A DNA stretch of 64,000 nt from Spartobacteria bacterium (lineage in GTDB: Bacteria; Verrucomicrobiota; Verrucomicrobiia; Chthoniobacterales; UBA10450): NCBI GenBank assembly GCA_003167555.1, contig PMSN01000010.1:80973-144972 (forward strand), given 5' to 3'. Of the stretch, positions 1 through 33,010 are shown one piece after another (position 1 is the first letter of the stretch; each line of letters opens with the position of its first letter). Made by a program: the position numbers and the translations under genes. Under the pieces are notes generated by a model that worked only from the letters and a program-made list of their open reading frames with translations, was not told the DNA's origin and did not search any database.

Positions 1-90
1 CCGTAGGTGTAACTGTCGGCGTTGGCGTTGCCGTAGGTGTGACTGTCGGCGTTGGTGTCGCCGTAGGTGTGACTGTCGGCGTTGGCGTAG
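1..90. repeat. Three tandem 30-bp units encoding a Thr-Pro linker
   Basis: Three near-identical 30-bp units lie at 1-30, 31-60 and 61-90, each starting CCGTAGGTGT and differing at a few bases. A fourth degenerate stretch follows to about 110. On the minus strand, in the frame of the surrounding gene, they encode Thr-Pro/Thr-Val dipeptides, a flexible linker after the PKD domain. The array continues past the left edge, so the copy number is unknown. Confidence 0.85.
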
Positions 91-3000
91 GAGTTGGTGT
101 CCCCGTCGAGATGATGACTTGGGCAGGATTTGTGCTCACCTGGCCGAACGAATCCTTAACCGTCAATCTGGCTGGGAAATCGCCATCAGTGGTATAGGTG
201 TGGGTGAAGAGAGCCGAGGAGAATTGAGTGATAGGAGTGCTGCCGTCGCCGAAATCGAGGGTGTATGAAGTGATCGTGCCACACGCGCCGTGCGTCGAGG
301 TCGAGGCGTCAAAATTGACGGTTAGGGGCGCGGCGCCGGTCATCGGCGCGGCCGTCAGTCCCGCAACTGGCAGGCCCGTGGTGGAACAGGCCGTGTTCCC
401 ACTCCTGGTGTAGCTCGATGTAGCTCCACCGCCGGTCTTCTGGACTGTTTCCAAGAGCCCTGTGCCGGCCCCGCCGACAAGAAGGATAGTCTGGCCGGTA
501 ATGCTCGCCAGTTTTTCCCCCGGTTTGCGAGCATCCCAGGTAAAGGCAACCCCAGTCGCGCCGGCGGACGGTGCCGGGAAATTGAGTGCCTGCGAAACAT
601 CCAGTTTTATGGTGATCGTTCCGTCCGGATTAATGTTTCCCGAGATCGCCGGGCACGCCTGTGCGGTAGCGGCCGTGCAGATCGCACTGTCGAAGGTGCC
701 GCCGGTCGCGCTCGGGTCTTGTCTGCCGTAACTAAACTCCGGTGTTGGACTGATGCCGTTCGTATCCATATCCACAAAGATCGTTTGGGGGTTCCCGGTG
801 GTGTCCGTGACGTGAAAGAGGATTTGCCATTCGCCATTTGCCGGCGTAACCGCCGTCCCCGTCCCACTGGGGTCCATTGTCTGCACCTTCATGACAAAGG
901 TGATCGAATTGTCGGTACAAATCGTGAAGGGCTCTCCTAGGTTGATGCGTTGGATGGTCATTTCTCCCATTGTCGGATCGGTCGGGACGTTTCCGGCTGT
1001 CCCCGCACCGGCTACTTGAATGAACGGGGCGGCGCATGCGCTCTGGTTCGGCGCCACCGCGGTCAAGCTGAGCTCTTGACAAAACGGAGATTCACCCTGG
1101 CTGTTCACGGCCGTGACATGGTAGAAATAATTTGGAACGGTGGAGCTTACCGTCGTGTCGAGAAATTTTGTGTGTTTGTTCAAGGGGTCGTTTGAAACGG
1201 TGGCTAGCAATGTTTCCGTCCCGCTGGCTGTGCCGCGATAGATATTGTAGGAGGTGATCGGCGAGCCGCCATTGTCTGGCTCGAGCCACGATACGAGCAC
1301 AGAGGTGGAGCTTTGCTGCGTAGCCGAGACTGCCTGTGGCGCCGCAGGAACCGCCACCAAAGGCGGGTCAAATTGTGTGAACAGCCTCGGTCCACCCGAT
1401 TGCCGCGCTATCATACCTTGAGCCGAGTTTGAGTCCCCGGAAGCGGATGTGTTCGTGCAATTCACGCAACCATCCGAGAGCCCGAGCACTCCGCGCCCCT
1501 GGCTGTCGACATCGAACCCATTAAAGTCCAGGAGATTTCTCTTTGTCGGGCAGGTCGTGCCGCCGTTGCAAACAGGGCCTACTTGAATGGGATCATCGGG
1601 GGTCGCATCGATAGTCACGTACGAGTTACCGCCGTCATAGGTTGTAGCGATGTAGAGATGCCATATGCCGGTAAAGCTCGCATTTAAGGAAGAGTCGCCG
1701 GGCGTTGTAGTGCCGAGGAAGCCGAAGCTGGCACGGTTATCATCTCCGGCCACCACGACTGGAAAGGTGGTGTTGGCGAGACCGAAGGCACCGCCCACAT
1801 TCTGATCGCCTACCCAGGTCACGCCGCGATCGTGTGATGCGGCAATATGTGGAGTGCCATCGCTATGGATGTATCCAAGATAAATAGTGTTGGTAGCCTG
1901 GCCAGCAGGCTTGCCTACGTCGTTCAAACCAATCGCGACTGAGGGATCGACCAGTCCTGGCTTAGGGCTTCCGCTTCCTGGGACATTGAATTCATTCCAA
2001 GTGGTGCCGTTGTCCGTCGAGACGGCAACACCCTGATTGCCCGTGGGTAAGGTGCATGAATAATTCGGGACATACACCGTGCCGTCTCGCGCCACCTTGA
2101 CGTGACCGTGAATTGAGCCTGTGCACTGCGTGAGATTGTAAATGGGAACGCTGGGCCCAAATGTCAGACCGCCATCATCGCTCCGAGAACATTCCGCCTC
2201 GGGCGCGATGTTCTGAGTGCAATAATAAATGGCATTGGAGTAGACGGTGTTAGGAGGAGGGGGTGGCGTCGAGTTGGGATTGTAAGGCCCGCCGCCGATG
2301 GTCTCGTGGTCGGGTCCTTGTGGGACGCCGCCGCCCTGCGAAGGCGTATGAGAGGCTCCGTCATCGTCGGTGAAAGCAGTGATGCTGTCGCCGCCTGAAA
2401 GCTGCCCGTGAAAGGTGCGCCCCGGTGTCTTGGGTGGTGGGTAGCCGGTGCCAAGCGCGGCGCTTGTAAAGTGGTCGGTGAACCCGATCGCATCAAGAGT
2501 CGTTATTCCCTCCGTCGGGAAGGCCGTGTCCTGCCAGGTATTGATCGCGGGTGAAGAGCAATCGTCAAAGGCAACCCGGTATTGGTTAAAGGTGCCCGTG
2601 AACATCGCGAGGCCGCCCGTGTTGAGCTCAGTCGGGCCATGCGCGCCGGTGCCAGGAGCGACCTGCTGGAGGCTGGCTACATTTGGGTTCCAGTCTATAC
2701 CAATGGAAGGCTCTCCCGACATGGTGGCGACGCCGTTGGGAGCCTCATAAACCTGATAGCGCGGAGCTGGGCCGCTACCGGTCGTTCCGGCCGCCGAACT
2801 GCTCGCCAGGCTGACCGTTCCCGTATAACCGGTACCGGGCGAGCCAATCTCCAGGGTCGTGACTATCTTGTAGGGACCATTCGTGTCCAAGCCGGGCGTA
2901 TTCGGAGCAAGTGTGATTGTTTCGGGATCCAGTCCAGCAGTATTCGACGCGATGACGTTGCCATTCTTGTCCTCGACAAAGGAGCCGTATTGAATGGCCG

Positions 3001-3358
3001 ATGGCGACCACTTGATCTGAATGACGATGTTATTTTTCGTCGGATCATAGCCGGGACTACCCACGAAGATAGCAGGATCGAGCGTAAGCGTGAAGATGCT
3101 GCAATCAGCGCCATTAGCCGCGCAAGTAGGCTTGCTAAAGCCGACGCCTTCGCCGGTAGCGTTAGGCGCCGGTCCGACCGGATCATTGTATGTCACGAGC
3201 CGATTGGCCGTGCTCAGTGTGCCGCTCGCCGGAGCCGGTCCCCCGACTCCCTGGGCAAAGCTGACCATCGCCAGGGCCACGCCCAGAAAACAAAGTGAGA
3301 GCGAGACCGCAACGCGTAGATAGGAGACGCCGGACTTCGAGGTGGAGTTTTTTTGCAT
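1..3358 (-). CDS. Giant secreted Asp-box/FnIII/PKD protein (C-terminus beyond window)
   Basis: The minus-strand frame is open from the ATG at 3358 to the left edge, so at least 1119 codons are present and the end is missing. The start MQKNSTSKSG is followed by a hydrophobic signal segment, LCFLGVALAMVSFAQG, so export is inferred. It aligns by eye with the two genes upstream: an N-terminal beta domain, Asp-box segments (STDNGTTW near 2000, SHDRGVTW near 1815), a fibronectin III domain (about 1050-1350), a second beta domain, then a PKD domain containing LDFGDGST (about 120-370) and a Thr-Pro linker. Asp-box folds occur in sialidases and other beta-propellers, but no catalytic set could be assigned. 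It diverges more from its two neighbours than they do from each other. It is probably followed by the same C-terminal module, which cannot be seen here. Confidence 0.85.
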   Translation of the reverse strand, partial: MQKNSTSKSGVSYLRVAVSLSLCFLGVALAMVSFAQGVGGPAPASGTLSTANRLVTYNDPVGPAPNATGEGVGFSKPTCAANGADCSIFTLTLDPAIFVGSPGYDPTKNNIVIQIKWSPSAIQYGSFVEDKNGNVIASNTAGLDPETITLAPNTPGLDTNGPYKIVTTLEIGSPGTGYTGTVSLASSSAAGTTGSGPAPRYQVYEAPNGVATMSGEPSIGIDWNPNVASLQQVAPGTGAHGPTELNTGGLAMFTGTFNQYRVAFDDCSSPAINTWQDTAFPTEGITTLDAIGFTDHFTSAALGTGYPPPKTPGRTFHGQLSGGDSITAFTDDDGASHTPSQGGGVPQGPDHETIGGGPYNPNSTPPPPPNTVYSNAIYYCTQNIAPEAECSRSDDGGLTFGPSVPIYNLTQCTGSIHGHVKVARDGTVYVPNYSCTLPTGNQGVAVSTDNGTTWNEFNVPGSGSPKPGLVDPSVAIGLNDVGKPAGQATNTIYLGYIHSDGTPHIAASHDRGVTWVGDQNVGGAFGLANTTFPVVVAGDDNRASFGFLGTTTPGDSSLNASFTGIWHLYIATTYDGGNSYVTIDATPDDPIQVGPVCNGGTTCPTKRNLLDFNGFDVDSQGRGVLGLSDGCVNCTNTSASGDSNSAQGMIARQSGGPRLFTQFDPPLVAVPAAPQAVSATQQSSTSVLVSWLEPDNGGSPITSYNIYRGTASGTETLLATVSNDPLNKHTKFLDTTVSSTVPNYFYHVTAVNSQGESPFCQELSLTAVAPNQSACAAPFIQVAGAGTAGNVPTDPTMGEMTIQRINLGEPFTICTDNSITFVMKVQTMDPSGTGTAVTPANGEWQILFHVTDTTGNPQTIFVDMDTNGISPTPEFSYGRQDPSATGGTFDSAICTAATAQACPAISGNINPDGTITIKLDVSQALNFPAPSAGATGVAFTWDARKPGEKLASITGQTILLVGGAGTGLLETVQKTGGGATSSYTRSGNTACSTTGLPVAGLTAAPMTGAAPLTVNFDASTSTHGACGTITSYTLDFGDGSTPITQFSSALFTHTYTTDGDFPARLTVKDSFGQVSTNPAQVIISTGTPTPTPTPTVTPTATPTPTVTPTATPTPTVTPT

Positions 3359-3421: not shown

Positions 3422-6400
3422 CTAGTGGACGTTGTAGATCTCCACGAGACCTACTCCGGAGGTGTTATTTTTTCCGGCCAGGATGGCGGTGTAATTGCCG
3501 GGCGCGACGTCAGTCAGGATAGCTGATTCACGATCGTCGCTCGGTGGAATGCCAGTTCCCTGGATGTCCGATTGCTGAGACTGTCCTGACTGGTCGTCGA
3601 TCTTCCAGTTATCGTTGGTCCGAATCTTGGCGCCGTTAGCGTCGTGCAGCTCGAGCGTGGGATCCTGGAGCGGGTTCGCTACGAAGTTACTCAGCGAAGG
3701 TCCGATGCCGCGAATCAGTACTCCCGTTGGAGCCGCGTTAGCGGGGCCGGCGACGAAGCCCGCGATCATGACATTGTCACCCGTTTGCACGAATCCACGG
3801 GTGCTGATGTTTGACAGTTTGGAGTTCGCAAATGGATCGAGGTCATAGGCCTCGACCACCCCAATGCCGGTGGTATTGTTTTTCCCGCGCAAGATCACCG
3901 TGTAGTTACCGGGATTCAATGTTCGTACTAATGCGGACTCGCGATCATCACTCGGCGCGGCGCCGGTATTTTCGATGGCAGCTTGTTGCGATTGCCCATT
4001 TTGATCGTTGATCTTCCAGTTATCGTTGGTCGCGACAACTCCATTTGCGTCGTGCAGCTCGATCGTCGGATCTTGCATGGCTCCGGGGATTGGCTGGCCA
4101 TTGCTCTTCGCCGAAGGACCTATGCCGCGGAGAAGTATTTGCCTCGGGTCGTTCCCAGTGACAATAAACCCTGCGATCAGGACGTTGTCGCCGGTCTGAA
4201 CAGAGCCGCGCGTTGATATATTGCGGAGCGCAGCATTTACTTCGATGGGCAATACTGCCGTATTAGTGCTTATTAAGCCTCGCGAGTCCGTGACGGTTAG
4301 TCGCGCGGGATACTCACCCGGTGCATTATAGGTGTGCGTGACCGTGGGTGAGCTTTGTGACGAAGTTGAGCCATCGCCGAAGTCAAAGTTGTATGTCGCA
4401 ATGGTGTCCCCTGAATCTGGGTCAGTAGAGTTAGCGCCACTGAGGTTAACGGTTAATGGACCTGGACCGTGGTCCGGAGAAGCGGTCAATACCGCTGTCG
4501 GCGCGGCATTTGGCGCACAGATGTTATTGCCGTTGACCGTATAGCTGCCGGTGAAGGTGAGGCTATCGGGCATGCTGTCATAGACCTCGGTCAGGACGCC
4601 CCCGGTGGTTTGCGACGAGCCCGAAACAAATCCGGCGATAGTGTCGCCCGGTTTCAAGCCGAGATCGCTGGCCAGGACCACGATGGTGATCTTGCCGTTC
4701 GGTCCGTCCAAGTTGCTGGCAGGATCGGCTGGCTTGCTGGAGGCAACGAAACGTCCGTCTACGCCACCGCTACCGTTCGCGCCCGGTACGTAGGACGAAA
4801 AGGTGGGCGACGCTCCGCCATCCATGCGCACACCGGAAAAGTGAAACGTCGTTGCCGGCGACGCGTCCGGAATCTTGATCGCAACATACCAACCCGAACC
4901 AGGAGGCGTCGCGGTGATCGGATCAGTGTTAATGGTGAAAACAAATTTGATCACCCCATTCTGAGCAAAAGGCTGCGAGAGGTGGAATGAAAGCAGGTCC
5001 GTTCCAGGGACACCGCCCGTGTTATCGCCCGCGTTGTCCGTCAGCTCAGTCAGCCCAGCGAGCGAGCAAATGTTTTGCGGCGGCAGCGTGGGCACTATCT
5101 TTAGGTCGATCTCGTTGCTGGCAAAGCCAGTGCCTACCGAGTTGATCGCTTTGACGATGTAGAAGTAGTCGGGCACCGAAGGACTTGCCGTTCCGTCGAT
5201 GAAGCTTGTCTTGCCGACAGTCTGACCTATCGGCGTAACGCCTTCGCCACCGGCAATGGTTCCGCGGAAGATTTGATATTTGATGATATCCGAACCGCCA
5301 TTATCGGGCGCTTTCCAGGAAAGATGTGAAGCGGTCGCATCGCGAGTTCCCGACAGGCAGGAAGGCTTGGGCACCGTCGGCTCCGCTGTATCTTTGCTCG
5401 CCAGCAAGCCTTTACCGCCAGACAGGCGCGCGACACGCATGAACGCGACAAAGTCGTTCGGCTTCGTCCCGGCAATGCAACCTGCCGTCACGCAGCCATC
5501 GCTGTAGCCGTAGAGCACACGACCTTGGTCGTCCACGGTGATTTCATTGAAATCAAGCAGATTGCGATCTTGCGCGCCTCCGCCCTGCTGCCACACGCCA
5601 GTCATGCTTTGGACTGGATCGTTAGGTGTAGCGTTGACCGTCACCCAGGTCTGACCGCCGTCATAGGTGGTAGAAATAAAGGCATACCACTTTCCAGGGA
5701 AATCCAGGTCCTGGTAGGGCCCCGGATTGTCAGTTCCCAGGAAGCCAACGGCGGCGCGGCCGGAGCTGCCGCCGACAGCCTCAATCTCCACGGCATTCCT
5801 GAGACCGTGCGAAGCGCCAAGATCGACATCGTTAATCCAAGTCTTGCCGCCGTCTTTGCTCACCTTAACGCGAGCGTGGCCTTCGGGAAGGCTACCAGGC
5901 GCCACCGGATCATTGTTGACGTAGGCATAATAAACAGTGTTATCGGTGTCGATTGCGATGGAGGGATCGGCTCCGTTGACCTGCGACACGCTTCCGGTGA
6001 CGATGAACTCTGTCCATGTGGTCCCGCCATCCGTACTCAGAGCTCCGCCCTGTTTCCCGTTGCATTGATTAACCGGGAGCCAGGCCGTGCCGTCGGGGGC
6101 GACGTGAAGGTGTCCATGCAGACCACCGCAATCGGTGCCTCCGGGGGTGGAGCTGCCGAGACCATTGTAAGCAAGAACTCCCGGACCATAGCTGGCGCCG
6201 AGCGTATCGCTCCGCTGGCATGAGGCGGGGCCAACGATGTCCTGCGAGCAATAATAAACGGCGTGACCCTGATTTACCGGCGTCGACAACGCACTCAATA
6301 AAGCCGGATAGGGGCCGGACCCGATCGTTTCATGGTCTGCTCCACCATTCGGAGGTGACACGCCACCCTCGGTCCATGAATCGCCATCGTTATCGCTGTA

Positions 6401-7336
6401 GGCATAGACAGCATTGGCGCCCGCCGTCGAGTTGGAGACCAAAGTGCGCCCGGTCTTTTGATCCGTCCATAGAATTGGGTCGAGACCCGTATTAGCACTC
6501 ACGGTCGACTTATCTTCCCAAAGTCCCTCGCAGCACTCCGGTTTCTTAGGAGTCTGCGCGTCACCCGGAGTGAGCCGCCAAACGGGCCCGGAGTTCATCA
6601 ACATCATGCGTCCCGTCGCGGGATTGAACCCAATGTTAAACTCGCCGTTGCTCACTTCGGCCGAGGAGCCAGAAGGCGCCTCGAAAATTTGGTAACGTGG
6701 AACGCCAGGGGTAGTCGGATCTGGTCCACCGAAGCCACCAACCGGTCCGCCAGACCCATCCAACAGCTCAATTTTTACATGGACCATTTCACCAGTGGGC
6801 GTGCTAGGCACAATGTTGAGCGTGTAAGTCTGGCTCCCGTCCTTCAGCGGAAAAATCGATGCGACCTCCGGGTTTTTCCCGCTGGCCGATTGATAATCGG
6901 CCCGCTCATTGCCGTCGGGCGTGGAGCAATCGGGCGTGGGACAATCCGCTCGGCCTGTTTTATAGATGTAGAGATCGTAGTCTGACTTGCCCGAGCCGGT
7001 ATCGGTCCAAAACATCGTGACTTTGGCTCCGGCAAAGGGGTGCGCGGCGGCGTATCCGGACGGCAGCGTTACAGTCAGCGAGAAATTATCACAGGGATCC
7101 GCGGCATCGCAGCGTGGTCCAGAATCGAGTTGACCCAACCCGAGGGGCGACTGATTAGCCTGAAAAAATGGACCTGCATCGTACGTCAGCGTGCGTGTCG
7201 ACACGGAAAGGATCCCGCTCGGCGGCGTTGAAGCGAGGCTGAACATGGCGAGCAAGGCTCCCGCTGAACAAAGAAAAAGAGCGGCGAGGATCCGCGGATT
7301 AAAGAGTCCCGATTCGGACGTGGATTTTTTTTGCAT
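3422..7336 (-). CDS. Giant secreted Asp-box/FnIII/PKD protein with C-terminal double module (1304 aa)
   Basis: Probably a cell-surface or secreted protein. Residues 1-37 are a signal peptide (RILAALFLCSAGALLAMFSLA). About 45-195 is a beta domain resembling pre-peptidase C-terminal domains (KSDYDLYIYK). About 240-640 carries Asp-box motifs (SDNDGDSW, STDGGTTW, SKDGGKTW, TYDGGQTW), as in sialidase-type beta-propellers. About 655-745 is fibronectin III, 755-945 an unassigned beta domain, 947-1036 a PKD domain (FDFGDGST). Two related modules follow at 1039-1175 and 1176-1304 (DNA 3812-4222 and 3425-3811). A Shine-Dalgarno-like AGGA precedes the ATG. It lies 63 bp from the next paralogue and is the same length (1304 aa) as the upstream one. 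The enzymatic role is unknown; adhesion or polysaccharide binding is possible. Confidence 0.9.
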   Translation of the reverse strand: MQKKSTSESGLFNPRILAALFLCSAGALLAMFSLASTPPSGILSVSTRTLTYDAGPFFQANQSPLGLGQLDSGPRCDAADPCDNFSLTVTLPSGYAAAHPFAGAKVTMFWTDTGSGKSDYDLYIYKTGRADCPTPDCSTPDGNERADYQSASGKNPEVASIFPLKDGSQTYTLNIVPSTPTGEMVHVKIELLDGSGGPVGGFGGPDPTTPGVPRYQIFEAPSGSSAEVSNGEFNIGFNPATGRMMLMNSGPVWRLTPGDAQTPKKPECCEGLWEDKSTVSANTGLDPILWTDQKTGRTLVSNSTAGANAVYAYSDNDGDSWTEGGVSPPNGGADHETIGSGPYPALLSALSTPVNQGHAVYYCSQDIVGPASCQRSDTLGASYGPGVLAYNGLGSSTPGGTDCGGLHGHLHVAPDGTAWLPVNQCNGKQGGALSTDGGTTWTEFIVTGSVSQVNGADPSIAIDTDNTVYYAYVNNDPVAPGSLPEGHARVKVSKDGGKTWINDVDLGASHGLRNAVEIEAVGGSSGRAAVGFLGTDNPGPYQDLDFPGKWYAFISTTYDGGQTWVTVNATPNDPVQSMTGVWQQGGGAQDRNLLDFNEITVDDQGRVLYGYSDGCVTAGCIAGTKPNDFVAFMRVARLSGGKGLLASKDTAEPTVPKPSCLSGTRDATASHLSWKAPDNGGSDIIKYQIFRGTIAGGEGVTPIGQTVGKTSFIDGTASPSVPDYFYIVKAINSVGTGFASNEIDLKIVPTLPPQNICSLAGLTELTDNAGDNTGGVPGTDLLSFHLSQPFAQNGVIKFVFTINTDPITATPPGSGWYVAIKIPDASPATTFHFSGVRMDGGASPTFSSYVPGANGSGGVDGRFVASSKPADPASNLDGPNGKITIVVLASDLGLKPGDTIAGFVSGSSQTTGGVLTEVYDSMPDSLTFTGSYTVNGNNICAPNAAPTAVLTASPDHGPGPLTVNLSGANSTDPDSGDTIATYNFDFGDGSTSSQSSPTVTHTYNAPGEYPARLTVTDSRGLISTNTAVLPIEVNAALRNISTRGSVQTGDNVLIAGFIVTGNDPRQILLRGIGPSAKSNGQPIPGAMQDPTIELHDANGVVATNDNWKINDQNGQSQQAAIENTGAAPSDDRESALVRTLNPGNYTVILRGKNNTTGIGVVEAYDLDPFANSKLSNISTRGFVQTGDNVMIAGFVAGPANAAPTGVLIRGIGPSLSNFVANPLQDPTLELHDANGAKIRTNDNWKIDDQSGQSQQSDIQGTGIPPSDDRESAILTDVAPGNYTAILAGKNNTSGVGLVEIYNVH

Positions 7337-7417: not shown

Positions 7418-10400
7418 CTAGGGAACGTTATAAATCTCGACCAGACCAATGCCGGATGTGCCGCCTTTACCAGCTAAAATGGCCGTGTAGTTCCCAGGCG
7501 CAAGCTCGATGAGAATGGCCGATTCGCGATCATCGTTCGGCGCGAGCCCCGTGGCTTGAATGGCCGACTGCTGAGACTGCTGCGTCTTATCGTCGATTTT
7601 CCAATTATCGTTAGTGGCGATCTTATCGCCATTGCCATTGTGCAATTCGAGCGTGGGATCCTGCAACGGATTCGGCACGCTGGAGTTACTCAGAGAAGGT
7701 CCCATGCCGCGGATAACCACCCGCGTATTCCCCGCCTTGGGAGGACCCGCTACAAAGCCGCCGATCATCACATTGTCTCCCGTTTGAACCAATCCGCGCG
7801 AACTGATGTTCGCTAGTTGGGAGGTCGCAGCGGAGTCGAGGTCGTATGCTTCAACCACGGCGATGCCGGTGGTGTTATTCACTCCGCGCAGGACCACGGT
7901 ATAGTTCCCAGGATTCAAGGTCCTCACGAGGGCGGATTCACGATCGTCTGTGGGCGGTATTCCGGTCGCCTCGATTTCCGCTTGCTGGGATTGCTGGTTC
8001 TGATCGTTGATCTTCCAGTTATCGTTAGTGGTGACACCTCCGTTAGCATCGTGCAGTTCTAGTGTTGGGTCTTGCATGGCCCCTGGAATAGGCTGGCCAT
8101 TCGATTTCAATGAAGGACCGATGGCGCGCACGATGATCTTTTTCGGCTGGGTGCCGGTTACAATGAATCCTCCGATCAGGACGTTGTCCCCGGTGAGCAC
8201 TTGTGCGCGGGTGGAGATGTTCTGCAGGATCGCATCTACATCTATTAGGAATATCGACGTGTTCGTGCTGGCCAGGCCATGGGAATCAGTCACGGTGAGA
8301 CGCGCCCCATACTCTCCAGGTGAGTTATAGGTATGTGAAATGGTCGGCGAAGACTGCGTGACGGGAGGCGAACCATCGCCAAAATTGAAGGTATAAGAGG
8401 CAATTGAATCGCCGGCGTCTGGGTCCGTTGAGCCTGCACCGCTGAAGTTAACTGTTAACGGATTAGGACCAGATTGGGGCGTCCCAGTCAGTAATGCTGT
8501 TGGCGCTGCGTTAGGCGCGCAGGCTGCGTTTCCTAGGACAGTGTAGCTACCTGACGGCGCAAGGCTGTCCGGCATATTGTCTGGCGTAAGTGTGATAACG
8601 ACTCCATTGACGCCAACAATCCTTACTAGGAATCCTGAGATGGCCTGACCCGGCGCGGGATTGCCAATGGCGCTGCCCGGCACGACAATCCTGATTGTCC
8701 CATCGGGAGTGAAGGTGCTGGCGGGATCGGCCGCGACCAACGTTCCCGCAGTCGGTCCAACTTGAAAGATCGGCGCGGTGGTGGCGCCGTCTCCTGGTGC
8801 GTTAGTCATCCGCACGGTGTAGTTAACGGCGGGTGAGCCAACATTAAACGTTACCGGCCAGCGAGTGTTAGGAGGTACCGTCGCAAGGCTTTGCATTTTG
8901 AGAGTGAAAACCACCTTGTTTGGCGCGAAAGCAAAGGGCTCGGCGATAGACAAGCTTTGCACATCGTGCCCAGGCACCATGTCGAGCTCATCCCCAGTGG
9001 CATCGCTCAGGATCAGAAGGCCCGGCAGCGCGCACGCTGTCGGAGTCGGTGGCGTCACCGCGATTTTCAGGTCAATCTCGTTGCTCGCTACGCTGGTGCC
9101 ATTGGCATTAATCGCCTTGACCACGTAGAAGTAATCCGGCACCGAAGGGAGGGCCGCAAAGTCGTCATAAGTGGTCTTGGTATCACCCGGCAGACCTGTC
9201 ACCAAGACTACTTCGCTGCCTGAGGTGGTTCCGCGCAGGATTTGATAATTGGTGATCTCGGCGCCGCCGTTGTCTGGCGCTTTCCAGCTTAGATGCGATG
9301 CAGTGGAATCGCGCGTGCCGGACAAGCAGGGCGGTTTCGGCGCCGTCGGCTCTGCTATGTCCATACTGGCGAACAGACCTTTGCCGCCGGACTGGCGCGC
9401 GACCCGCATGTAGGCTGTATAATCGTTGGGCGCTGTTCCCGCGATACAGCCTTCGGTGACGCAACCATCGCTGTAGCCATAGAGCACGCGGCCCTTGGCA
9501 TCTACCGTGATTTCGTTGAAGTCGAGTAGGTTGCGGTCCTGGGCGCTGCCACCCTGTTGCCAGATACCGGTCATGCTCTGAACTGGGTCGTTAGGTGTGG
9601 CGTTCACGGTGACCCACGTTAGTCCACCATCATAGGTGGTAGAGATGAATGCATACCATTTGCCAGGGAAACTTCCGGCTTGGTAGTCGCCGGGAACGTT
9701 CGTGCCGGGAAATCCAACCGCCGCGCGGCCCGAGCTGCCGCCGACCGCCTCAATCTCTGCAGCGTTTACGATTCCGTGAGACTTGCCGAGATCTACGTCG
9801 TTGATCCAGGTCACGCCGCGGTCTTTACTCACCTTGACATGAACATGGCCTTCCGGCGGGTTGCCCGCCGCCACTGGCTCGTTGTTAACGTACGCGTAGT
9901 ACGCGGTGCTATCGGCATCAATGGCAACAGAAGGATCGGCGCCGTTGCCCTGCGACGCGCTTCCGGTCACAATAAATTCCGTCCACGTGGTGCCTCCATT
10001 TGTGCTCACCGCACCGCCCTGCTTCCCGGCGCATTGATTAACCGGCAACCAAACGGTCCCATCCGGTGCTACATGGACGTGGCCGTGCAGACCGCCGCAA
10101 TCTGTTCCACCTGGGAGGCCACTTCCTTGTCCGTTGTAAGCGAGAACCCCCGGGCCGTAGCTAGCACCGAGCGTATCGCTCCGCTGGCATGAGGCGGGAC
10201 CAACAATATCCTGCGAACAATAGTAGACCGCTTCGCCTTGATTCACGGGAGTCGACAGCGCACTCAAGCCTGCAGGGTACGGTCCGGAGCCTATGGTCTC
10301 GTGATCCGCTCCCCCATTAGGCGGAGAGGCCGCGACTGGGACCCATTGGTCGCCGTCGTTGAAGGGCGCTGCCGCGTCGGTGTATCCGTAAACAGCGTTG

Positions 10401-11332
10401 GCGCCGGCCGTCGAATTCGAGGAAAAGGTGCGCCCGGTTTTCTGATCAGTCCACAGGATCGGGTCCAAACCCGTGTTAGTCGCCGGATTGGATTTATCTT
10501 CCCAAAGCGCTTCGCAACACTCCGGCATCTTCGGCGTCAAAATCTCCGGCGGAGTCAGACGCCAAATCGGCCCGATATTCATCACCATGATGCGGAGGGT
10601 CTTTGGATCGAACCCGATATTGAACTCGCCCTGCGCCGCGTTTGCAGCGCTTGTGCCGAGGGGCGCATAGAAATTTAGGTAGCGCGGATTGCCAGGGACC
10701 GTGGGGTCCGTGCCACCGAACGGGCCGGGGGCCGGTCCACCGCCACCAGCCGCACCCGGTAGCAATTCAATTTTGACATTGACGGTTTCGCCAGTCGGAG
10801 TGTACGGCAGCACTACGACTGTGTATTTGTGAGTCCCATCCAATAAAGGACTGATGGTCGCGATCTCAGGATTATTGCTGCTGGCCGATTGGTAGTCAGC
10901 CGCCTCGCTGCCGTCTGTGGTAGTGCAATCGTTGGGGGTGCAATCGCTCCGAGGATTCTTGTAAATATAAAGGTCGTAGTCCGATTTGCCGCTGCCGGCA
11001 TCCGTCCAGCCCATCGTGACTTTCGCCGCGGCGTTTGGATGCGCGGCGGCATAACCAGCGGGCAGCGTTATCGTCAACGCGTAATCATCGCATGGCTGAG
11101 AAGGATTGTTGCACTCGGGGCCCTTATCAACCTCGATCACCGGAGTAGGATTGGCCGCGGTGAATGGCCCTGCGGTGTAACTCTGAGCGCCGGAAGTGTC
11201 GGTAAGGGTCCCGCTCGGCGGCGTTGAAGCGAGACTGAACATGGCGAGCAAGGCTCCCGCTGAACAAAGAAAAAAAGCGGCGAGGATCCGCGGATTAAAG
11301 AGTCCCGATTCGGACGTAGATTTTTTTTGCAT
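7418..11332 (-). CDS. Giant secreted Asp-box/FnIII/PKD protein with C-terminal double module (1304 aa)
   Basis: First of three tandem paralogues. The frame opens 42 codons upstream, but the ATG at 11332 is chosen because it gives the same MQKKSTSESG start and 1304-aa length as the next gene and places the signal peptide at the N-terminus. Domain order is the same: signal peptide, PPC-like beta domain, Asp-box region (STNGGTTW, SKDRGVTW, TYDGGLTW), fibronectin III, beta domain, PKD (FNFGDGSP), then two C-terminal modules (DNA 7811-8221 and 7421-7810). The first 120 or so coding bases are almost identical to those of the downstream paralogue while the rest has diverged. A palindrome lies upstream in the divergent region shared with pgi. 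Function unknown. Confidence 0.9.
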   Translation of the reverse strand: MQKKSTSESGLFNPRILAAFFLCSAGALLAMFSLASTPPSGTLTDTSGAQSYTAGPFTAANPTPVIEVDKGPECNNPSQPCDDYALTITLPAGYAAAHPNAAAKVTMGWTDAGSGKSDYDLYIYKNPRSDCTPNDCTTTDGSEAADYQSASSNNPEIATISPLLDGTHKYTVVVLPYTPTGETVNVKIELLPGAAGGGGPAPGPFGGTDPTVPGNPRYLNFYAPLGTSAANAAQGEFNIGFDPKTLRIMVMNIGPIWRLTPPEILTPKMPECCEALWEDKSNPATNTGLDPILWTDQKTGRTFSSNSTAGANAVYGYTDAAAPFNDGDQWVPVAASPPNGGADHETIGSGPYPAGLSALSTPVNQGEAVYYCSQDIVGPASCQRSDTLGASYGPGVLAYNGQGSGLPGGTDCGGLHGHVHVAPDGTVWLPVNQCAGKQGGAVSTNGGTTWTEFIVTGSASQGNGADPSVAIDADSTAYYAYVNNEPVAAGNPPEGHVHVKVSKDRGVTWINDVDLGKSHGIVNAAEIEAVGGSSGRAAVGFPGTNVPGDYQAGSFPGKWYAFISTTYDGGLTWVTVNATPNDPVQSMTGIWQQGGSAQDRNLLDFNEITVDAKGRVLYGYSDGCVTEGCIAGTAPNDYTAYMRVARQSGGKGLFASMDIAEPTAPKPPCLSGTRDSTASHLSWKAPDNGGAEITNYQILRGTTSGSEVVLVTGLPGDTKTTYDDFAALPSVPDYFYVVKAINANGTSVASNEIDLKIAVTPPTPTACALPGLLILSDATGDELDMVPGHDVQSLSIAEPFAFAPNKVVFTLKMQSLATVPPNTRWPVTFNVGSPAVNYTVRMTNAPGDGATTAPIFQVGPTAGTLVAADPASTFTPDGTIRIVVPGSAIGNPAPGQAISGFLVRIVGVNGVVITLTPDNMPDSLAPSGSYTVLGNAACAPNAAPTALLTGTPQSGPNPLTVNFSGAGSTDPDAGDSIASYTFNFGDGSPPVTQSSPTISHTYNSPGEYGARLTVTDSHGLASTNTSIFLIDVDAILQNISTRAQVLTGDNVLIGGFIVTGTQPKKIIVRAIGPSLKSNGQPIPGAMQDPTLELHDANGGVTTNDNWKINDQNQQSQQAEIEATGIPPTDDRESALVRTLNPGNYTVVLRGVNNTTGIAVVEAYDLDSAATSQLANISSRGLVQTGDNVMIGGFVAGPPKAGNTRVVIRGMGPSLSNSSVPNPLQDPTLELHNGNGDKIATNDNWKIDDKTQQSQQSAIQATGLAPNDDRESAILIELAPGNYTAILAGKGGTSGIGLVEIYNVP

Positions 11333-11463
11333 GATTTTTTGGACTAGGGACGAAGCGTGTGGACTATCGATGTCGCGGAACGTCCGACATAAACGTTGGG
11401 CATACTGCAGTTCGGAAGCGGCAGGCCGAAGTGGATGCCTAATTCTCGTTGCTCCCAAGTTTG

Positions 11464-27701: not shown

Positions 27702-29654
27702 TCAGGAAGCGCGGAGCATCAGGTCCGGGATTGGCTGGTAACGCAGGGTAAGCGTCGGAGAGCCAGCGAAGTTTTCGTCGGGATTTTCGTTAGCAAAGCG
27801 GGCCGATGTCCGGACCGGAGACCCTGCGACCAGCACAACATTGGTGTCGCTGAATTCGTCGCGCCGCCAGCCGATACCCAGGTCCAACGAACGCACCAAC
27901 GGAACGTTCATGGTTGCAGTAACTAAAGGGATGTTGAGTTCGAAGAACCAGGAGTCGACTTGCTGCCGGAACTTGGAAAGAGCCGCCTGGTTGAAGCCCA
28001 GTTGATCGCCGGAAGCCTGAACCGCATCAGGAATCTGCTTTTGGTTGACCTCCCGGTGCTCGTAGCTCCCGGCGACGTCGATGCCTCCGTTCCACAAGTT
28101 CGGAAGAAGGTGGGCGTTCATTTTCGCGTCGCCCAACCAATCCCGCTCGTAGGAGAAGGAGTGGCCAATGTAGGAGGCGGCCTCCGCGCCGGCGATGTTG
28201 TTGTAGGCGCGCGTTCCAGTCTGCACTCCATTCGCATAGGTCGGAGCGACGCCCACGGGCGCGGCAAACTGACCTATGAAGGGATCGAAAACACCGATAC
28301 GGATTTGGTTCCGAATCCCTTCGCGAGTGAAGTCGCCGCTGTCCGTTCGCAACTTGTCTGAGCGCTCGTAAACAAATCCTGTGTCATAACCAAAGCGACT
28401 GACGAATCCGTTCTCGTTCCAATTGAAATCGCCGTTTATGCCAGCGACATAACGGTAGTAATCCTGATCGTAGAAGGATTGCCGGTCGCCCAGTTCCTGG
28501 ACTGTCCGATATCTTAGCAACGTCAGAGTGTTACCCGGAAACGGGTTGAAAGGTGAGCTGCGCACGTCGCCCAATCCATTTGCAACGCTGGTAAAAGCGA
28601 TAGGAGTCGGCGAGATGGCGTTATCCTGCTTCGCTTTGGAATACAGGATGTCGCCATAGAGCTGGAGGCCATCGCTAAAAACCTTGTATCTTCCGGTCAC
28701 AAAATACATCGCTTTCTCGACCGCGGGAATCGCGGGAGTAAAGGCGCGGAAATTGAATCGGCTCGGGTCTGCGCCTGCTGGCGTGTCAAAAAGACGATAG
28801 CTGGCGGGATTAGGCGCGTTGTTCGTGAGATCGATCAGGACGCGCTGGCCGCCGCCGGCCGCGATTGGTCCGGACAAAGACATTCGGCCGGCAAACGTCG
28901 GGCTATTGTTGTTCAAGCCGTCCAGCCCGAGACCGGTCGCGTCGTTACTCAGATCGCCGGTTCGCGAGATCTCACGGTCACGCGAAAATAAGTTTGCGCG
29001 GGAATAATATTCGGCGGCCGCCGCGATGGAGACTCTTCCATGGAGACCGGTGACGCCACCACGCAGATAGACCTGACGAACATGCGCATCCGAGTCCGTC
29101 GTGTTCCCGTAGAAGGCATAAACTTCTGCCCCTTTGTACGGTTTTTCGCCAGGGCCGTTGAGCATGACGAAGTTCACAACGCCTCCGGTCGAATCGGAAC
29201 CGTAGACCCCGCCGTCAAATACTTCGGCGCGATCGAGTGCGCTAAGCGGGATGGCATTGATATTCGAGAAACCGAAGGCGCGCCGGCCATTGATTAGCGT
29301 CACGACATTGCGCGCACCGAGCGCATAGAGATTGATGGACGCGCTGCCATCGCCACCCACCGAGTCATTTTCAGTCCGAGTGGTTCCCACAAAAAAAGAA
29401 GTCTGACGTAATGCCTCGATGGGAGTGTCAGCTCCTTCCTTCTTCATCCACTCACCTGTGGTGACCCACACCCTCAACGACCCCTCCGTCTCGCTACTCG
29501 GGATTGGATCCATGATGACAATTGTACGTTCCTCGTCATCAGATGCCTGGGAGGTCGACGGACTTTGAGCATGAGCGCTCAGGCGCAAAACGAAGAACAC
29601 CGCGACAATGCCTGTGAGAATCGAGCGAAGTGGAGGTGGATTCGGTAGCTGCAA
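27702..29654 (-). pseudogene. TonB-dependent receptor, N-terminal part (plug and partial barrel)
   Basis: Outer-membrane receptor for TonB-driven uptake. The frame opens at 29798, but a TTG at 29654 preceded by AGGAG at 9 bp gives a signal peptide (ILTGIVAVFFVLRLSAHAQ) at the correct place, so this start is preferred. A plug domain follows (SASINLYALGARNVVTLINGR, SALDRAEVFDGGVYGSDSTG), then barrel strands to LMLRAS and TGA. The codon expected there is TGG (Trp) before RQSIRPPAFEE. The substrate is unknown. Unless the stop is read through or is a sequencing error, the receptor is truncated. The subtilase gene lies divergently 171 bp away. Confidence 0.85.
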
Positions 29655-29824
29655 GTCAGACCGCTCCTGGTTGGGAATGCGACGACAGACTGTTGAAACG
29701 CAATCGATGTGACAAGACTTTTTTCCGCATTGACGATATTTCCAAGTGGGACGATTGGTTGCCTGTCGCGCGATCCAAGACGCGTGTGATCGGTCCACTT
29801 ATCTTTCTTGACCGCTTGGGATCC

Positions 29825-32800
29825 ATGAGACGATTTTTTTACTCGATGTGCGCGCTTCTCGCCTTCGCGACGGCGCACGGACAGACTTCGCCCGCGCTCA
29901 CTCCGGTTTCGGGCGCTGTCGTCGCGCCAGAAAATCTGGGCCTCGGGCTGAAGCAAATCTTCGAACTCTATCAAGCAGATCAAGCGCAGGCGCGCAACAA
30001 GGTCGCCTCGACCGGATCGATCATGTCGGACGCTTCCGGGCGGCTCGTGGTCAACATCTACCTCAACGGAAAAACCGCGCCGGGCCAGGTCGCCGCCCAA
30101 TTGTCTAATCTCAGTTTGGAGATCATCGCGGTGGAAACACACTGGCGGAGCGGCGTCATTTCCGCGTGGCTGCCGATCGCAAAGGCCACCTCGGTCGCGA
30201 ATCTCCCCGGTGTGCAAAGCGTGATGCTCGCGCGGCGTCCGCTTCGTCGTGTCGGCGCGGTCACGGCCGAGAGCAGCGTGGTCGAGCACGCGCGTGAGGT
30301 TAACACGCCGGGAACCGTTACGAATCAAGGCATCCTTGGCCGCAATATCAGCGTCGGCATCGTTTCGGATTCGTTTGATGGCGCCACGGGAGTTCCGCGC
30401 GCGAGCGTCGGAGTCGCGGCCGGCGATCTCCCGGGGCCAGGGAATCCCGATGGCTACACCCAGCCGGTTGTCGTTTTGCAGGATGATCCGAGTTCGTCTT
30501 CCACGGATGAAGGCCGGGCCATGGCCGAGATCGTCCACGACATCGCGCCGGCGGCGAAGATTTGTTTCTCGGCCTCCGGTGCGACCCAAACCACCATGGC
30601 CGCCAGCATTCGCAATCTCCGCACCTCGTCGCAAGCTCTGAGCGACATCATCGTCGATGACACTGGTTTTCCCGACGAACCTTTCTTCTCCGACGGCATC
30701 ATCAGTCAGGCCATCGAGGATGTGGTGACGAGCAACGCGCTCGCGGGGAAAAAAGTGACTTATTTTTCCGCGGCGGGGAACGCTGACAACCGCGGCTATG
30801 CGGCGGACGCCAACATCATCACGTCGGTCGCGGCGCAATCATATCGGGGCAACCTCAAGTTCACATCGGTCTCCTCGACCCTCTACGCGGGTGGCTTTCA
30901 GAACATCGGCTCAAACGCTGCGCCCGCGATCGTGATGCCGATCATGACGGGTTCCGACCCCGCGGAAATCGTCTTTCAATGGGACGATCCGTTTAATGCC
31001 GGCAGCGTGACGACCGACTACAACCTTCTCGTTTTCGATCAGAACGGAAATTACCTCTCGTCGGCCAGCGGCACCGACAACAATTCCCCGACCGGCCAGC
31101 CCATCGAGATCGTCGATCTGAATCCGGGCACGAACTACCAACTCGTCATCAGTCTGCGCACCAACGCTCCCCCCACCGCGCGGCATCTTCGAATGATCAG
31201 CTTTGGCGGGGGCACGATCACGGGTCCTTATTTCACCGACAACGTCATTTCGCTTTTTGGGCACCCGGCTGCCGCAGATGCGAATGCCGTGGAGGCCTAC
31301 GTCTACAGCAACACGCCGAATACCATCGCGAATTATAACTCGGGCAAACTCAATCCGCCGCCCGGGCCCTACGAGCCAGCAAGCGAGAGCTTCAACGCAA
31401 AGGGCGGCGCGCTCCCTTTTTATTTTAACGCGCAAGGGCAGCGGCTCTCATCGCCGGAGATTCGGATGAAGCCGGAGTTCGCCGCGGCGGATGGCGTCGA
31501 CACTTCTTTTTTCCCGCCCGACGCCGGCTCTGATTACGACAACGACGGTTTCCCAAATTTCTTTGGCACCAGCGCGGCGGCTCCGAATGCCGCAGCTTTC
31601 GCAGCGTTGCTGCTGGAAGCCGCGGGCGGTCCTGGCTCGCTGACGCCCGCGCAGGTGCGGTCCACTCTCGAGCAAACGGCGATGCCGCACGACATCGATC
31701 CGAATTTTTCCAGCGCCACACTTTCCGGAGGAACCGCTGCGGTCCAGGTCAATGCCTCTGGTGATGACAGCAATGAAAGCGCGACGAGCCCGAATTTTTT
31801 CACGGTAACTTTCAATGGCGGCGCCGGAGAGACGCTCAACCAACTTACGATCGATCTGACCAACACCGCGCTTGTCTTCGATCAGCGAGCCGACCTCGGC
31901 TTCCCATTTACCGTCGGCCAAAACAGCGGCGGTGTGTCGGTGACGCCCAGCCTCTCCGCCGACAATCGCGTTCTCACTCTTACATTCGGAAACACCTTCA
32001 CCCCGGGGAAAACGATTTCGTTCGGAATCGATCGCGACCTGGCAGCGATCACGGCCGGTGGCAATTCAGCTGATCTGCTCGCGGGCGCGGACGTCACCGC
32101 AACCGTCGATTCCGGCCAAACGCTCTACGGCGCTTTCGCCAATGCGCTCGGGAACAGCTTCGTTCCCACGGACGGCTACGGATTGGTGGACGCGCGCGCC
32201 GCGGTCCAATCGATCGTCGGAAAAAAATCGAGCAGCAGCGGCGTGCCGGGGAATCTTTCCACGCGCGGAACGGTCGGCACCGGCAACAATGTCCTGATCG
32301 GCGGCGTGATTGTCGACGGGACGGCGGCGAAAAAAGTGATCGTGCGCGCGCTTGGCCCGTCGGTTCCGGTGCCCGGTGCGTTGGCCGATCCGACCCTGGA
32401 GTTGTTCGACGGCAACGGCCAATCGCTCGCGTTTGATAATGATTGGCAGGACGATTCGAACCAGGCCGCGCAAATTCAGGCCACAACAATCCCGCCGACT
32501 GATCCGCGAGAAAGTGCGCTGGTCGAGACGCTCACTCCCGGCAACTACACCGCCATCGTGCGCGGCGCGGGTAACACCACCGGCATCGCGCTCGTGGAAG
32601 TTTACGACCTCGACTCGAAGCCGGCCGCGTCGCGCCTCGCGAACATCGCCACACGCGGCAACGTGCAGAGCGGCGACAACGTCATGTTCGGCGGCTTCAT
32701 TCTCGTGAACGGTCCAGCCACGATGGTCGTCCGCGCCATCGGTCCATCCCTCGCGGCGTTCTTCCCCGGCGTCCTCGCCGATCCCGCGCTCGAGCTGCAC

Positions 32801-33010
32801 GATGGAAACGGCGTCTTGATCGCTTCGAACGACAACTGGCAGCAGGACTCGTTGCAAGCGATCCAGGTGCAGTCGATCGGCCTCGCGCCCACGAGTCCGC
32901 TCGAAAGCGCCATCATCACCACGCTCAACGCCGGCAACTACACCACGATTGTGCGCGGCGCGCGCGGCACCACCGGCGTCGCGCTGGTGGAAGTTTACGA
33001 TTTGCAATAA
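29825..33010 (+). CDS. Secreted subtilase (S8) with C-terminal double module
   Basis: The frame is open from 29630, but the ATG at 29825 starts a signal peptide (MRRFFYSMCALLAFATAHGQ) and avoids the divergent TonB gene, giving 1061 aa. The S8 catalytic triad is visible: Asp182 (GIVSDSFDG), His238 (AEIVHDIAP) and Ser583 (GTSAAAPN). Residues 810-1061 are two related modules (DNA 32252-32641 and 32642-33007) of the same type that end the giant Asp-box proteins 20 kb away. The protein is probably exported and surface-attached or released, degrading extracellular protein. A beta region (about 645-800) separates catalytic and C-terminal parts. Confidence 0.9.
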   Translation: MRRFFYSMCALLAFATAHGQTSPALTPVSGAVVAPENLGLGLKQIFELYQADQAQARNKVASTGSIMSDASGRLVVNIYLNGKTAPGQVAAQLSNLSLEIIAVETHWRSGVISAWLPIAKATSVANLPGVQSVMLARRPLRRVGAVTAESSVVEHAREVNTPGTVTNQGILGRNISVGIVSDSFDGATGVPRASVGVAAGDLPGPGNPDGYTQPVVVLQDDPSSSSTDEGRAMAEIVHDIAPAAKICFSASGATQTTMAASIRNLRTSSQALSDIIVDDTGFPDEPFFSDGIISQAIEDVVTSNALAGKKVTYFSAAGNADNRGYAADANIITSVAAQSYRGNLKFTSVSSTLYAGGFQNIGSNAAPAIVMPIMTGSDPAEIVFQWDDPFNAGSVTTDYNLLVFDQNGNYLSSASGTDNNSPTGQPIEIVDLNPGTNYQLVISLRTNAPPTARHLRMISFGGGTITGPYFTDNVISLFGHPAAADANAVEAYVYSNTPNTIANYNSGKLNPPPGPYEPASESFNAKGGALPFYFNAQGQRLSSPEIRMKPEFAAADGVDTSFFPPDAGSDYDNDGFPNFFGTSAAAPNAAAFAALLLEAAGGPGSLTPAQVRSTLEQTAMPHDIDPNFSSATLSGGTAAVQVNASGDDSNESATSPNFFTVTFNGGAGETLNQLTIDLTNTALVFDQRADLGFPFTVGQNSGGVSVTPSLSADNRVLTLTFGNTFTPGKTISFGIDRDLAAITAGGNSADLLAGADVTATVDSGQTLYGAFANALGNSFVPTDGYGLVDARAAVQSIVGKKSSSSGVPGNLSTRGTVGTGNNVLIGGVIVDGTAAKKVIVRALGPSVPVPGALADPTLELFDGNGQSLAFDNDWQDDSNQAAQIQATTIPPTDPRESALVETLTPGNYTAIVRGAGNTTGIALVEVYDLDSKPAASRLANIATRGNVQSGDNVMFGGFILVNGPATMVVRAIGPSLAAFFPGVLADPALELHDGNGVLIASNDNWQQDSLQAIQVQSIGLAPTSPLESAIITTLNAGNYTTIVRGARGTTGVALVEVYDLQ

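Follow-up and report, generated by a model that had tools for sequence, protein, structure and literature searches.

Background

PPC-type domains are known as substrate binders: the PPC domains of protease E495 bind protein substrates (PMC3327674) and the PPC domain of G. hollisae binds collagen (PMC6168687). In other bacteria, tails of the GlyGly-CTERM/MYXO-CTERM type sort proteins to the surface (PMC11980579, PMC3237569). The NCBIfam model NF038127, which describes the DVUA0089 family (FDP_fam), is silent on a fixed two-module C-terminal layout and on function. No publication on the pair of modules discussed here was found in literature searches.

Module pairs in the window

The window is the whole stretch of 64,000 nucleotides that was analysed. 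Three of its proteins end in two related modules, M1 and M2 (Table 1). A sequence-only reading had described six copies of the module at the C-termini of these proteins, and all six were recovered with a family-derived HMM, at domain E-values of 1e-51 to 1e-57. The interval 3425-4222 holds both C-terminal modules of the minus-strand ORF 3422-7336. A six-frame HMM scan of the whole window gave no seventh copy. By profile match the six copies are 122-133 residues long, and the motifs listed in that reading are present in them, many being invariant in 6/6. A further pair lies at C13:80093-80869 on the minus strand, directly beyond the window edge and behind a run of 38 N, and because of this position the third giant protein probably ends in a pair too.

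Table 1. Module copies and the proteins that carry them, in window coordinates
Feature	Position	Strand	Details
Third giant protein	2..3358	-	BNR-like, fn3, PKD, T/P linker; cut by window edge
Host protein	3422..7336	-	signal peptide, Asp-box/BNR part, fn3-like, PKD (aa 943-1026), then pair
M2 of 3422-7336 protein	3428..3823	-	HMM 169.1 bits; stop 1 aa further on
M1 of 3422-7336 protein	3836..4231	-	HMM 170.8 bits
Host protein, paralogue of 3422-7336 with identical layout	7418..11458	-
M2 of 7418-11458 protein	7424..7822	-	HMM 170.9 bits
M1 of 7418-11458 protein	7835..8227	-	HMM 179.7 bits
Host protein	29630..33010	+	signal peptide, subtilase-family S8 peptidase, pair
M1 of S8 subtilase	32249..32614	+	HMM 170.3 bits
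M2 of S8 subtilase	32633..33007	+	HMM 159.8 bits; runs up to stop

At the left edge of the window, C13:75326-92514 is a series of consecutive minus-strand pair-bearing genes, one of which is interrupted by a run of N. Contig breaks inside modules are also seen elsewhere in the assembly, at the ends of C9, C22 and C24. The subtilase is adjoined by a minus-strand ORF (27702-29798, 698 aa) with a start like the plug of a TonB-dependent receptor, which is possibly truncated or frameshifted.

Fold and family of the module

The pair was modelled with AlphaFold2 at a pLDDT of 95.1 and a pTM of 0.89, and M2 alone at a pLDDT of 91.9. On these models the pair is predicted to be two beta jelly-rolls of the PPC/collagen-binding type. 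Its best structural match is the tandem collagen-binding domain s3a-s3b of ColG (Foldseek E 5e-10), although the tandem as a whole superposes poorly as a rigid body (TM ~0.3). The M2 model matches the C-terminal jelly-roll of Tk-SP (Z 10.3, 99 residues aligned, 3.7 A), the ColG CBD (Z 8.9, 92 aligned, 2.7 A), the PPC domain of B. anthracis collagenase (5sv5, Z 8.4) and the ColH CBD (Z 8.3); these scores come from a predicted model, and Z values of around 8 are modest. Folds of LipL32, calpain and enterotoxin also match, at lower Z.

Profile comparisons point to the same superfamily. In a single pairwise comparison, the module profile aligned to a profile built from PPC copies of the phylum with an hhalign probability of 92.5 over 78 columns. 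PF04151 had no match in the host genome at E<=0.001; with cut-out pairs it matched 11/71 at E<=0.1, the best at 0.0012, below the gathering cut-off. NF038127 matched 53/71 pairs at E<=0.1, with a best value of 6.8e-15. Its cut-off of 29 bits is reached by two of the three pairs cut out of the window (27.8, 30.0 and 44.8 bits), and the whole window proteins all fall below it (P0001 and P0005 without a match, P0002 at 16.4 bits). Judged by profile and predicted fold, the module is best placed as a divergent branch of the PPC superfamily near NF038127. The earlier view that it has no named family thus gives way in part to a place in the PPC superfamily, with some cut-out pairs reaching the NF038127 cut-off. 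A match to a known adhesive domain had been named as evidence against a signal function, and such a match exists in part, in that the fold is common to the substrate-binding domains of ColG and ColH.

In one matrixin (L177) the module pair comes after two canonical PPC domains, an arrangement that suggests a PPC origin of the module. A profile search of PDB sequences returned kelch-type repeat artefacts only.

Scale and layout in the host genome

The host genome assembly is 4.2 Mb in 29 contigs. A 268-aa pair used as query gave 90 matches in it, and an iterated HMM run over the fetched regions found 155 modules in 85 ORFs. Exactly two modules are present in 70/85 of these ORFs, and 68 of the 70 reach their stop within 5 residues of the pair. 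The linker between M1 and M2 is 4-8 residues, and pair-bearing proteins finish with a beta-strand, VE-x-Y, and about three more residues; no extra C-terminal motif was found outside the fold. By a simple hydropathy rule, a strong hydrophobic stretch resembling a signal peptide is present in 70/85 module ORFs, the others being mostly fragments, at contig ends or cut by the fetched region. The passengers are very diverse: 62 passenger parts match 67 Pfam families, including kelch, DUF5122 propeller, beta-helix, subtilase, matrixin and PKD, with <=5 members in any one family. The idea that exported proteins of unrelated kinds share a portable pair at their C-termini, which had been drawn from three proteins, therefore holds on a far larger scale.

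The two modules are equally conserved, with mean pairwise identities of 0.57 for M1 and 0.56 for M2, and some copies are near-identical. On a tree in which many forks are unresolved, the M1 and M2 labels change 8 times as compared with about 46 times when the labels are shuffled. M1 and M2 thus form largely separate groups, and the pair is therefore mainly inherited and copied as one unit.

The C-terminal position is usual but not universal. Pairs or single modules directly follow the signal peptide in C17:70261 of the host genome and its orthologue L088 (G013), ahead of a CHRD-like and DUF1800-like part; in C4:149501 and C4:151913, ahead of collagen-like repeats; in L099, ahead of a lipase-like part; and in L065, ahead of a short domain. 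The names of these parts were read from sequence unless Pfam was run. L155 and C24:232427 have additional sequence C-terminal of the pair. Nearly all carriers are signal-peptide proteins, but there is an exception on a 60-kb viral contig (L172:2041-3411, L181:8099-9466), where a 456-aa beta-helix ORF with no obvious signal peptide has one module at its end. A metallophosphoesterase and a helicase are among the neighbours of this ORF, and elsewhere on the contig there is a weak terminase match. The N-terminal and internal pairs, together with the phage-contig case, argue against a signal that has to form the free C-terminus of a protein secreted by a bacterium.

Distribution and the exchange on matrixins

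Among 289 Verrucomicrobiota genomes, 15 match the module: 12 have many copies, G170 and G182 have one each and one distant genome gives a marginal match. The copy number per genome is thus dozens or nearly zero. Where they are named, the relatives that bear the pair are soil assemblies of Chthoniobacterales/Spartobacteria, and in f9, a further family of the class, the genome G272 has 77 matches, mostly full pairs. The layout is also maintained, with exactly two modules at the extreme C-terminus in 115/133 closed ORFs of other genomes and a two-module C-terminal layout in 28/30 loci of three further genera.

The 289 genomes were also searched with the catalytic part of a matrixin that carries the pair in the host genome. 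Most of the complete matrixin copies in module-rich genomes end in the pair, and none ends in the tripartite tail described next; copies with neither device were found once in G099 and twice in G091. In module-poor genomes 9/10 copies end instead in a tripartite tail, which consists of a Gly-rich stretch with a GAPSxWF motif, a hydrophobic (transmembrane) segment and a basic end (two in G060 and one each in G075, G088, G122, G155, G170, G182 and G275). The motif in G088 is the variant GSPSAYF, and the copy in G167 has neither pair nor tail. The exchange of pair and tail gives a Fisher p of 1e-6 over copies, a level that ignores kinship, and of 0.007 over genera; some ORFs in the tally of 19 and 10 were assembled from several searches.

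Strong tail matches occur genome-wide in the same genomes that have tailed matrixins and are frequent in several module-poor ones. The tail is absent from 10/12 module-rich genomes, and in the other two (G018 and G284) it lies inside one giant ORF each. It was also observed on dozens of proteins of module-poor f9 genomes (L201, L206, L208, L212-L215, L242, L252, L253). The sequence of the tail suggests a CTERM sorting tail that no model covers; it is similar to GlyGly-CTERM and MYXO-CTERM but scores below their cut-offs, and by analogy with them it may have a role in localisation. In G170 and G182 the sole pair-bearing protein has both pair and tail, so the pair may be without its partner in these genomes, or the two devices may have different jobs.

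Secretion genes and gene neighbourhood

A partner gene for processing or secretion had been named as a thing to look for, and none that tracks the pair was found: exosortase and type II secretin genes occur both with and without the module, and no protease dedicated to the pair was found. SprA of the T9SS matched in 0/25 genomes, but the controls were equally silent, so this search is uninformative.

In six f9 genomes (L184-L188, L193) a giant Big_7-type protein that ends in the pair is encoded directly after a conserved operon, which consists of four unassigned genes plus a secretin. The four genes are PilM/N/O-like when read by eye; Pfam found no match on those scanned. In G099 the corresponding giant protein downstream of the secretin operon is without the pair, and the arrangement was not seen at the secretins of the host genome. 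It probably reflects one common inheritance within f9.

The neighbourhood of pair genes is enriched in Ser/Thr kinase genes, which often come with an ECF sigma gene and are usually divergent from the pair gene. In the host genome 6 of about 16 kinases lie within 1 kb of pair genes as compared with 0.44 expected, and 0/20,000 simulations reached five; the exact ends of two of these kinase ORFs were inferred. Kinases beside pair genes, mostly with an ECF sigma gene (PF07638), are found at L015, L018, L025, L057, L102, L115, L131, L143, L145, L148, L155, L168, L170 and L171.

Proposed function of the pair

The leading explanation, held with moderate confidence, is that the pair is a putative cell-surface retention tag made of two PPC-type jelly-rolls. 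Surface retention is favoured because the matrixins of pair-less relatives carry an anchor-type C-terminal tail instead. The passenger would leave by Sec and would cross the outer membrane via a general route, type II-like secretins being present. The tandem jelly-rolls would then bind one ligand that is common to all passengers and lies on the cell's own envelope or matrix, with LPS, exopolysaccharide, an S-layer or a receptor protein as candidates. A passenger's substrate is an unlikely candidate for this common ligand, since the passenger families are so diverse. One device would in this manner display dozens of different proteins, and in near relatives the tripartite tail would do the equivalent job. 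Of the proposed roles in sorting, anchoring or secretion, the matrixin exchange makes anchoring or sorting likely, while secretion is left without a gene to go with it. Several observations count against a retention tag. No receptor or machine was found, and some module-rich matrixins have neither device. The pair and tail occur together in G170 and G182, pairs may be N-terminal or internal, and a single module occurs on a phage contig. PPC relatives elsewhere bind substrate (PMC3327674, PMC6168687), and the meaning of the tail for localisation is itself only inferred.

It is possible, though this is put forward tentatively, that Verrucomicrobiota have an undescribed surface-display system in which the pair serves as targeting element for a dedicated envelope receptor, and in which some members are under the control of adjacent Ser/Thr kinase/ECF sigma pairs.

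The two strongest alternatives are substrate binding and a secretion signal. The first, somewhat doubtful, is that the pair is a generic PPC-type accessory for substrate binding or stabilisation, as in ColG and E495, and that the C-terminus is merely its usual site. The closest folds are those of the ColG and ColH CBDs, the B. anthracis collagenase PPC domain and the Tk-SP jelly-roll, the layout in the window is ColG-like, PPC domains bind protein substrates in E495 (PMC3327674) and collagen in G. hollisae (PMC6168687), and the module also occurs on the beta-helix protein of the phage contig. However, no type of substrate is common to the passengers, and neither dozens of proteins per genome with exactly two copies nor a swap with a transmembrane sorting-type tail on one enzyme would be expected of a substrate binder.

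It is also unlikely that the pair is an outer-membrane secretion signal for a translocon, of type II or of another kind, resembling the T9SS CTD and possibly cleaved after export. Such a signal would fit a C-terminal element on dozens of signal-peptide proteins per genome, its all-or-few distribution and the secretin operon followed by a giant pair protein in six f9 genomes, but genomes have secretins and exosortases whether or not they have the module, SprA went unseen in a search with silent controls, pairs are also N-terminal and internal, and M1 and M2 are equally conserved with no C-terminal motif outside the fold. That the pair is chiefly a coding cassette which spreads by recombination and has little function of its own is very improbable: copies are near-identical in places and contigs break within modules, but the layout has long been strongly conserved across families of the class and M1 and M2 have kept their identities.

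If the pair is a surface retention tag, it accounts for the destination of some seventy otherwise unrelated exoproteins in each genome of these soil Verrucomicrobiota, which are abundant and for the most part uncultured, and it makes their surface proteome open to testing through a single feature. For diderm bacteria, a tandem tag that is folded and can be exchanged for a tripartite sorting tail would be a new way to display proteins at the surface.

Comparison with known systems

The module has the jelly-roll fold in common with PF04151 PPC and clostridial collagen-binding domains, and a tandem C-terminal layout like that of the pair is known in ColG and E495. The window proteins also recall ColG in their order, with a catalytic-like part, PKD and two PPC-like domains. 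Unlike PPC and CBD domains, the module has a conserved N-terminal part (NISTRG..TGDNV) and shows massive paralogy on unrelated passengers.

Both the T9SS CTD (TIGR04183, PF18962) and the pair are C-terminal beta domains carried by dozens of unrelated cargo proteins. A window pair scores 15.5 bits against TIGR04183 (type A CTD), for which the cut-off is 23, a faint profile similarity; the T9SS CTD is absent among the structural matches listed, which carries no weight either way. In contrast to that domain, the pair is about 260 aa long, consists of two modules and is tolerated at the N-terminus.

The GlyGly-CTERM, MYXO-CTERM and PEP-CTERM tails are, like the pair, portable C-terminal devices on dozens of secreted proteins, but the pair is folded and lacks their C-terminal motif, transmembrane helix and basic end. 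The proposed display system would be a functional equivalent of CTERM/sortase and T9SS sorting, but one that uses a folded tandem PPC-like tag.
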